A DNA stretch of 5,392 nucleotides from positions 1 through 5,392 of the forward strand of contig JALGWK010000317.1 in assembly GCA_025774205.1 (NCBI GenBank), written 5' to 3'. The position numbers were made by a program, and so were the translations under genes. The notes under the pieces were generated by a model that had not been told where the DNA came from, searched no databases, and was given only the letters and a program-made list of their open reading frames with translations. Shown piece after piece: positions 2,626-5,392 of the stretch; position 1 is the first letter of the stretch, and each line of letters begins with the position of its first letter. The DNA comes from a bacterium (lineage in GTDB: Bacteria > Blakebacterota > Blakebacteria > Blakebacterales > Blakebacteraceae).

Positions 2626-2654
2626 ATCCCCCGGGTTTCCTGAGCAAAGGATCA
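2624..2654. terminator. Weak inverted repeat between convergent gene ends
   Basis: TGATCC (2624-2629) and GGATCA (2649-2654) could form a 6-bp stem with a 19-nt loop that contains CCCGGG. It lies between the ends of the DUF4405 gene and the sulfotransferase and overlaps the latter's stop codon (2654-2652). There is no adjacent T-rich run, so a terminator role is only possible. Confidence 0.2.
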
Positions 2655-2876
2655 GTCAGATTTGCGGAGGAACGGGTAGAGCCGGTTGCGCAGGGGGGCG
2701 ATAACCGCCTTCACGTACCGGCCCCGTTTCCTCACCCTGAGATCCCTGCGACTGAAGTGCTCCGGCCAGTGACTCTCATTCAGATCAGGTTCGACTCCCT
2801 CCAGCTCACCAAGCCACGATTCATCCTCCTCGTAACCGAATCGGATGAGATCTTCGGATATCGATCCATGGACCTG

Positions 2877-2903
2877 CACCTGTCCCGCGACGCGGGGCAG
2901 GTG
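2877..2903. repeat. 27-bp near-perfect palindrome inside the sulfotransferase gene
   Basis: CACCTGTCCCGCG (2877-2889) and CGCGGGGCAGGTG (2891-2903) are reverse complements except for one T/G pair, which could wobble in RNA. One base (A2890) separates the arms, so a tight hairpin or cruciform is possible. The left edge of the 49-bp duplication (2886) falls within the left arm, which makes this structure a likely cause of the duplication. Confidence 0.8.
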
Positions 2904-2983
2904 ACTGCGCCAGTTGCCGATACTGCCGGCGCTGCGCGACGCGGGGCAGGTGACTGCGCCAGTTGCCGATACTGCCGGCGCTG
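2886..2983. repeat. Perfect 49-bp tandem duplication
   Basis: Positions 2886-2934 and 2935-2983 are identical over all 49 bases, and the match ends exactly at both edges. Because 49 is not a multiple of three, the second copy shifts the reading frame of the sulfotransferase gene. The absence of any difference between copies points to a very recent event or to an assembly artefact. Confidence 0.95.
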
Positions 2984-3520
2984 ATCGCCCGGACGCCGCG
3001 CAGGGCTTTGACTGAATCTTCAGACGGTCTGGCAATGTTGTGATACTGGCTGAATTCCGTCCGCTTCTCCAGGAATGGCATCCGTTCCATCAGGAGTTCC
3101 TGGATTACGTCAGGTTCACGGACCAGGTCTTCATAGCGCAGCGTGATGAAACGCGGATGATCCCGCAGCCTCTCTCCGTAGTCGATGTATTTCTTCCAGT
3201 ACCTCAGGCTCGACCAGTACCGCTCGGGATCTTTCCGGTGCCTGCTGACGACCATATCCCGCGGATCGCGGATCATGTAGATGACGTGAAGGGAGGGCAT
3301 GGTCCGCAGGATCGGACCGGCCACCAGGATGTCGCGGGGCCGCTTGGTGAGAAAGATATCGGCCCGGCGAGAGGGCGGGCTGAAGATGCTGGTCTCATGT
3401 TCGGTGTGCAGATCGATCTCGAAGCAGGCGATCATGATCTCGGCAATGAGTGTCGTGCCCGATCGTGGACCGCACCCGACCACATGTATTCGTTTCATGC
3501 CCATGGAGGTCCTGCTGCCC

Positions 3521-4577
3521 TCACCGATCGAGGTGATCGAGCAGGTCGTTCCGGTAGGGGAAGAGCGCCGGGGTGCCGCCGCTGTGCAGGAAGAGAACGC
3601 TGCTGCCTTCCGGGAAGACACCCTTCCCCAGCAGGTCGAGGAGCCCTGACATGGCCTTTCCGGTGTAGACCGGGTCGAGCAGGATGCCCTCGGTGGTCGC
3701 GACCAGATCGATCGCGTCGGCCACCTCGCGGGTCAAGATGCCGTATCCCTCCTGGAGGTAATCGGGCAGGACGATCACGTCTCCTTCTTCTACCCGCGTC
3801 CCGGTCTCCAGGAGGTCGAAGGTGGCGTCTGATATCTCGCGGACATATCGCGACATCGTCTCTTCATCTTCGGAGACACTGACTCCGATGATCTTCGTCT
3901 TCGGAGAGAGGAGTTTCGCTCCGACCAGGAGCCCGGCCTGGGTGGATCCGGAGCCGGTGGCGTGGACGATCGCGTCGGGCAGATCACCTGTCGCGGAGGT
4001 CTGCCTGAAGATCTCCATGAACGCCTCGACGTAGCCGAGCGCGCCCAGTGGTTCGGTCATCGATCCCTCGACCCTCGAGCCGCCGATGGAGGCGACGTAC
4101 GGTGTTCCACCACTCTCAAGGACTTCCTCCTCGAGGCGGCCGATGGTATCGGCCACAGCCGCGAGCTCCATCATCTTCGTATCGGCGGTCGCGTCCACGA
4201 ACTCCACCCGGGCGTTGAAGAGCGAATCGAGCAGGAGATTGCCGTCCGGCTCGATCGATACTCCTTCTTTCCTGAAGAGGACCAGGATCGACTGCAGGCC
4301 AAGTCTGGCGGTCGCGGCCGCCGTCTGCCGGCACCAGTTCGATTGCACTCCGGCCCAGGTGATGATGGTGTCGGCACCCTTCTCGAGCGCGTCGGCCATG
4401 ATGAACTCGAGTTTACGGGCCTTGTTGCCTCCGAACGCCAGGCCGGTGCCGTCGTCGCGCTTGATCATCAGGTCGATGCCGTCGAATCCGGCCGACAGCC
4501 TCTCCATCCGGGAGGTGAGCCAGGGGGACCAGGGGGAAGGCCCCGATCTTCTCTTTCAGATGCTGCAGGTTATCCAT
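3521..4577 (-). CDS. PLP-dependent enzyme of the D-cysteine desulfhydrase/ACC deaminase family, N-terminal frameshift
   Basis: The long frame (4507-3521, 328 residues) carries the family hallmarks. Counting from the ATG at 4507, KRDD (16-19) and GGNKARKLEF (26-35) contain the PLP lysine K29. Next come QSNWCRQTAAA (55-65), the phosphate-binding ATGSGSTQAGL (183-192), LDPVYTGKA near the active-site tyrosine, and SGGTPALFPY near the C-terminus. The true start is probably the ATG at 4577, behind GGAGGAGAG: it encodes MDNLQHLKEKIGAFPLVPLA plus HLP, the expected family N-terminus, but in another frame. The two join with a one-base shift at 4508-4512, about where a family 'PT' would follow LAHLP, so a few bases may be missing. 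The family includes D-cysteine desulfhydrase (pyruvate, H2S, ammonia), ACC deaminase and L-cysteate sulfo-lyase. Trp replaces the usual His after QSN, so I do not name a substrate. If the frameshift is real, only an internal start at 4507 would give near-full-length enzyme, and that ATG has no ribosome binding site. It is first in an operon with the sulfotransferase. Confidence 0.82.
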
Positions 4578-4766: not shown

Positions 4767-5392
4767 ATGAAAGTGAGCTGGTTCAGAGCGCCGGGTGCCA
4801 TCGTGCTGGCAGGCATGGTGATCGGATCACTGGTGGACTGCGGAGGCGGGCGAGAGACCTCGGAGGAAGCGCTCATCATCGCGGTGAGTGTCCAGCCGCA
4901 GGCCTGGCTCGTGGAGCAGGTGGCGGGTGACCAGGTGGAAGTGATCACCCTTCTCTCCCCGATGCCCAGATCACCCGGGTGATGAGAGCCAGGCTCTATT
5001 TCCGGACCGGTGTCCCCTTCGAGAACGGCCGCTGGTTCGAAACCTTCGAGATAACTGCCGGCCCCGAGGTCGTCGATCTGCGGGACGGTATCACGCTCCA
5101 CCAGATGGCGCATGATCATAGCCATGAAGGTGAAGGTGGAGGAGAAGGGGCAGGGGAACACGTTGATGAACCTGCCGGGGAGGCGGGATCGGGTACTGAT
5201 CCTCATATATGGGTGTCACCCGAACTCCTCAAGACACAGGCGCACACCATCGCCGATGCCCTCTCCGGGGCGGATCCCGGGAATCGGGATGAATACCACC
5301 GCCGTCTCGAGGAACTGGTCACCGAGCTGGAGGCACTCCAGACCTGGATCCACGGCCGCCTCGACGAGTACCGGGATCGGGCATTCTACGTC
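4767..5392 (+). pseudogene. Zn/Mn-type ABC transporter substrate-binding protein (ZnuA/TroA family), internal deletion and frameshift, 3' end outside window
   Basis: Cluster A-I (TroA/ZnuA-like, PF01297) proteins capture Zn or Mn outside the cell for an ABC importer. From the ATG at 4767, residues 8-24 form a hydrophobic signal segment, with a possible lipid-modified Cys at 25 (SLVDC; Asp before the Cys is unusual). The mature start follows the family: IAVSVQPQAWLVEQVAGDQ and VEVITLLSP (about 37-65). At 4959-4961 the frame breaks and would stop at 4980-4982. The family resumes in another frame at GAT 4961 with DAQITRVMRARLYFRTGVPF and continues to the window end: VVDLRDGI, a His/Glu/Gly-rich loop (HDHSHEGEGGGEGAGEH, 5110-5160), TDPHIWVSPELL with the conserved DPH ligand, and a coiled linker helix. 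The block usually found between (P-G-x-x-P-x-x-Y/F-x-P-T, which carries the first metal-ligand His in many members) is absent. So about 10 codons plus a net one-base shift seem lost. Permease and ATPase genes probably follow beyond the window. Confidence 0.82.
4970..4983. repeat. 14-bp perfect palindrome next to the metal-binding protein lesion
   Basis: ATCACCCGGGTGAT is a perfect 14-bp palindrome. An extra copy of GATCACCC lies at 4943-4950, matching 4969-4976, so the frameshift point at about 4960 is flanked by direct repeats and enclosed by an inverted repeat (ATCACCC at 4944-4950 with GGGTGAT at 4977-4983). Confidence 0.7.

Follow-up and report, generated by a model that had tools for sequence, protein, structure and literature searches.

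Does an exact tandem duplication that breaks the frame of a gene mark a switch by which a bacterium turns that gene off and on, a recent mutation, or an error of assembly? The question is raised by a sulfotransferase gene in a stretch of 5,392 nucleotides (hereafter, the window) that makes up the entire contig C116 of a draft genome (527 contigs, 3.09 Mb; 85.85% complete, 4.84% contaminated). The original prediction described two identical, adjacent 49-bp copies of non-triplet length that switch the sulfotransferase frame off, and two repeat-finding programs agree on these copies. They abut and are 100% identical (49/49), and a side-by-side match of this extent is not chance. Since 49 does not divide by three (49 mod 3 = 1), the sulfotransferase frame is offset past the repeat and is broken in the sequence as given. 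The four features concerned are as follows.

2886–2934, no strand assigned: first copy of the exact 49-bp tandem duplication (two repeat-finding programs)
2935–2983, no strand assigned: second copy of the exact 49-bp tandem duplication (two programs; the unit does not extend on either side)
2935–3504, minus strand: N-terminal part of the sulfotransferase, PF13469, with GPRSGTT and RDPRD motifs (profile match, motifs)
2652–2934, minus strand: C-terminal remainder of the sulfotransferase, read in the frame that results from the duplication, as far as the stop (frame, codon-position G+C; homology weak)

Coding is coherent on both sides of the repeat. On the minus strand, the frame opens at an ATG at 3504 and the frame that follows the repeat reaches a stop at 2652, a distance of 853 nt; with one copy removed, 853 − 49 = 804 nt, i.e., 268 codons including the stop, and this arithmetic bears out the claim that loss of either copy restores an exact 268-codon gene. 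The N-terminal part matches Sulfotransfer_3 (PF13469) at 46.6 bits vs a cut-off of 27 and contains the PAPS-binding motifs expected of the family (GCGPRSGTT and RDPRD), and its homologues share 26–33% identity. The restored gene had also been credited with a family-typical C-terminus, which is plausible but draws little from homology. Specifically, G+C by codon position in the C-terminal piece is 0.67/0.40/0.68 in the shifted frame—the pattern of a coding frame—vs 0.69/0.66/0.39, which is not coding-like, when the frame is read on through both copies; the piece has no match in Pfam or NCBIfam, and it aligns weakly with a single homologue (45% over 20 residues, E 0.019 among 68 ORFs).

Comparison with relatives placed the sulfotransferase as an extra of this lineage. 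Three genomes closer than domain level were compared (one of the same genus, G001, and two of the same family), and no counterpart of the gene was found in any of them. In G001 a different gene occupies its place, and the desulfhydrase-like gene and znuA adjoin as they do in the window. A protein scan of the genome-contig collection returned no relative, an exact scan of that collection returned no match to the 49-mer, and plasmids and PDB sequences gave no match.

Duplications of this kind recur across the assembly. In 548 kb of this genome (contigs taken in stretches, those shorter than ~3 kb read as N), and with shorter exact repeats (13–15 bp) and low-complexity arrays (L057, L058) set aside, nine clean, exact two-copy tandem duplications have non-triplet lengths (17, 22, 22, 25, 28, 47, 49, 53, and 104 bp), and 8/9 lie inside genes. 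A 47-bp copy (C360) splits topoisomerase I, of which only one was detected, itself spread across two contigs. Copies of 22 bp split both a pyruvate phosphate dikinase (C10; named from its own sequence and PF02896, and about 95% identical to its counterpart in G001) and a DUF1846 protein (C26). A K+ channel/TrkA_N protein and a TonB receptor are split by copies of 104 (C24) and 28 bp, respectively. Losses occur as well, e.g., 43 bp from an ABC permease and about 100 nt, with a change of frame, from a valyl-tRNA synthetase (C340; named from its own sequence). RNA polymerase beta is intact, and the damage is therefore scattered. All of the non-triplet duplications are in contigs longer than their list neighbours, though most of the bases are found in such contigs, which makes this little informative.

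The same-genus genome, which alone served as the rate control (367 kb), has two clean exact duplications, both of 38-bp period (L082, G001:C170, 8281–8357; L145, G001:C18, 3965–4040), and a 38-bp copy splits the only S-adenosylmethionine synthetase N-domain detected there. The excess in our genome over G001 is not significant (p = 0.12), and a higher duplication rate is thus only suggestive; the identity of the affected genes says more. Duplications of this type recur regardless of gene function and reach only-detected copies of housekeeping genes, the housekeeping instances being topoisomerase I, pyruvate phosphate dikinase and DUF1846 here and S-adenosylmethionine synthetase in the same-genus genome. 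Near a contig end, in L059 (G000:C200, 3108–3304), a direct repeat of 93 bp is exact but has 11 bp of unmatched sequence between its copies (offset 104 bp), and it resembles two contigs joined across a poor end. The period of the exact duplication in L034 is likewise 104.

The junction of a duplication offers a second line of evidence. Duplications that arise by slippage or short-repeat recombination leave homology past the repeated unit. At the 49-bp duplication the flanking bases are mismatched on both sides (2885, C, vs 2934, G; 2984, A, vs 2886, C), junction homology is 0 bp, and the junction is without the homology that slippage or recombination would predict. More broadly, junction homology is 0–1 bp in 11 non-triplet duplications vs 1–12 bp in five in-frame repeats of this genome, the latter being as slippage predicts (Mann–Whitney p = 5.6e-4; the groups were chosen after the data were seen, so that this contrast is supporting and not a formal test). 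Experimentally verified spontaneous duplications in Salmonella have junction homology of at least 11 bp, and in that work real duplications were told apart from chimeric reads by the length of this homology (PMC3411829). Exact copies with no junction homology beyond chance, as found here, are what an artefact should leave.

The window itself carries further breaks, two of which can be sized by alignment with G001.

4509–4510, minus strand: 14 bp missing here against the same-genus genome, in a D-cysteine desulfhydrase/ACC deaminase-like gene (3521–4576)
4958–4959, plus strand: 31 bp missing here against the same-genus genome, in a ZnuA-like gene (about 4768–5392)

Both deletions break the frame within otherwise well-conserved sequence. 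A PrsW-family gene on the minus strand changes frame near 380–400, and another frame, running down to about 198, seems to hold its true C-terminus; neither G001 nor G002 has a homologue by which this change could be sized. With the sulfotransferase included, unrelated indels break 4 of about 7 genes in 5.4 kb.

Taken as a whole, these patterns make an assembly error the most likely source of the duplication, because the same type of break cuts housekeeping genes across the assembly. From sequence evidence, then, the 49-bp duplication is very probably an artefact: the sequence as given does contain it, but the organism most likely lacks it and has an intact sulfotransferase gene. Two partial contigs with a 49-bp overlap would have been set end to end with the overlap unmerged, so that the shared 49 bp appear twice and shift the sulfotransferase frame; wrong joins in the opposite direction would account for the short deletions that break frames both in this contig and in other parts of the genome. 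Runs of N in the genome show that scaffolding was used, and we infer that scaffolding or gap closing was the step responsible. Duplicated overlaps at scaffold joins, among other local errors, have been described for IDBA-UD and CLC assemblies (PMC7111523). As here, sequence common to two contig ends was doubled at the join in those metagenome-assembled genomes, gene sequences were made incorrect, and further local errors occurred within one assembly; unlike here, Ns stood between the duplicated flanks, whereas our copies abut directly. A literature search on tandem duplication in metagenome-assembled genomes found no paper. Several observations count against an artefact, i.e., in the described error Ns usually separate the copies but here they are absent, overlap lengths vary such that no single k-mer size fits them all, the rate excess over the same-genus genome falls short of significance, and RNA polymerase beta has escaped a damage that is scattered. 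The position of the repeat matches no obvious contig end. That such lesions recur in housekeeping genes, and that their junctions lack homology, nonetheless leave assembly error, which the original prediction had listed as an alternative, as its best-supported reading.

It is unlikely that the sulfotransferase was inactivated by a tandem duplication that arose recently in the sampled strain itself, with no regulatory role and perhaps to decay or revert later. Exact copies would make such an event very young, and loss of a lineage-specific extra, absent from the same-genus genome, could be tolerated; against this stand the lesions of the same type in housekeeping genes of one assembly, a junction with 0 bp of homology vs the 11 bp or more of the verified Salmonella duplications (PMC3411829), and the three further genes of this 5.4-kb contig that are broken by unrelated indels. 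Less probable still is the on/off switch, in which gain and loss of a 49-bp copy would turn the sulfotransferase off and on in a subpopulation. An exact repeat of non-triplet length with coherent coding on both sides speaks for it, and spontaneous, reversible duplications inside capsule genes are documented. Loss of a sulfotransferase might be conditionally useful; lesions of the same type also strike housekeeping genes. In the pneumococcal genes cap3A, cap8E, and tts, as cited in later papers, phase variation occurs by sequence duplication, where, as in our gene, a short exact tandem copy breaks the frame and loss of one copy could reverse the break (Waite 2001, 2003, cited in PMC4243769, PMC4022640). 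By those same secondary accounts, however, switching there was observed in culture, whereas nothing in our sequence points to two states and housekeeping genes are also affected. Like duplications sit in genes that have no reason to switch and could not sensibly be off, no short repeat at the junction could have seeded the event, and no close orthologue was found that might show a conserved repeat. The switch is therefore not supported. Least credible of all is that an unusual mutational process has truly given the organism many fresh, exact duplications that break frames, together with short deletions, in housekeeping genes too; the sulfotransferase copy would then be one reversible instance.

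The main value of the locus is thus one of caution: this draft genome contains exact duplications that break frames, and short deletions, so often that claims of a pseudogene or a switch from a single contig are unsafe. Housekeeping-gene recurrence, period modulo 3, and junction homology together make a quick screen that parts joins from slippage repeats. Were the duplication real and switching, it would be one more case of a known type of phase variation.

Two other features of the window deserve mention. An imperfect 18-bp tandem repeat (2574–2621; 2.7 copies, 90%) spans the stop codon of a DUF4405 gene and places a TAG or TAA in each unit. Two YbjQ-family (PF01906) genes lie side by side at 879–1690, the first with an N-terminal extension that resembles a membrane helix.
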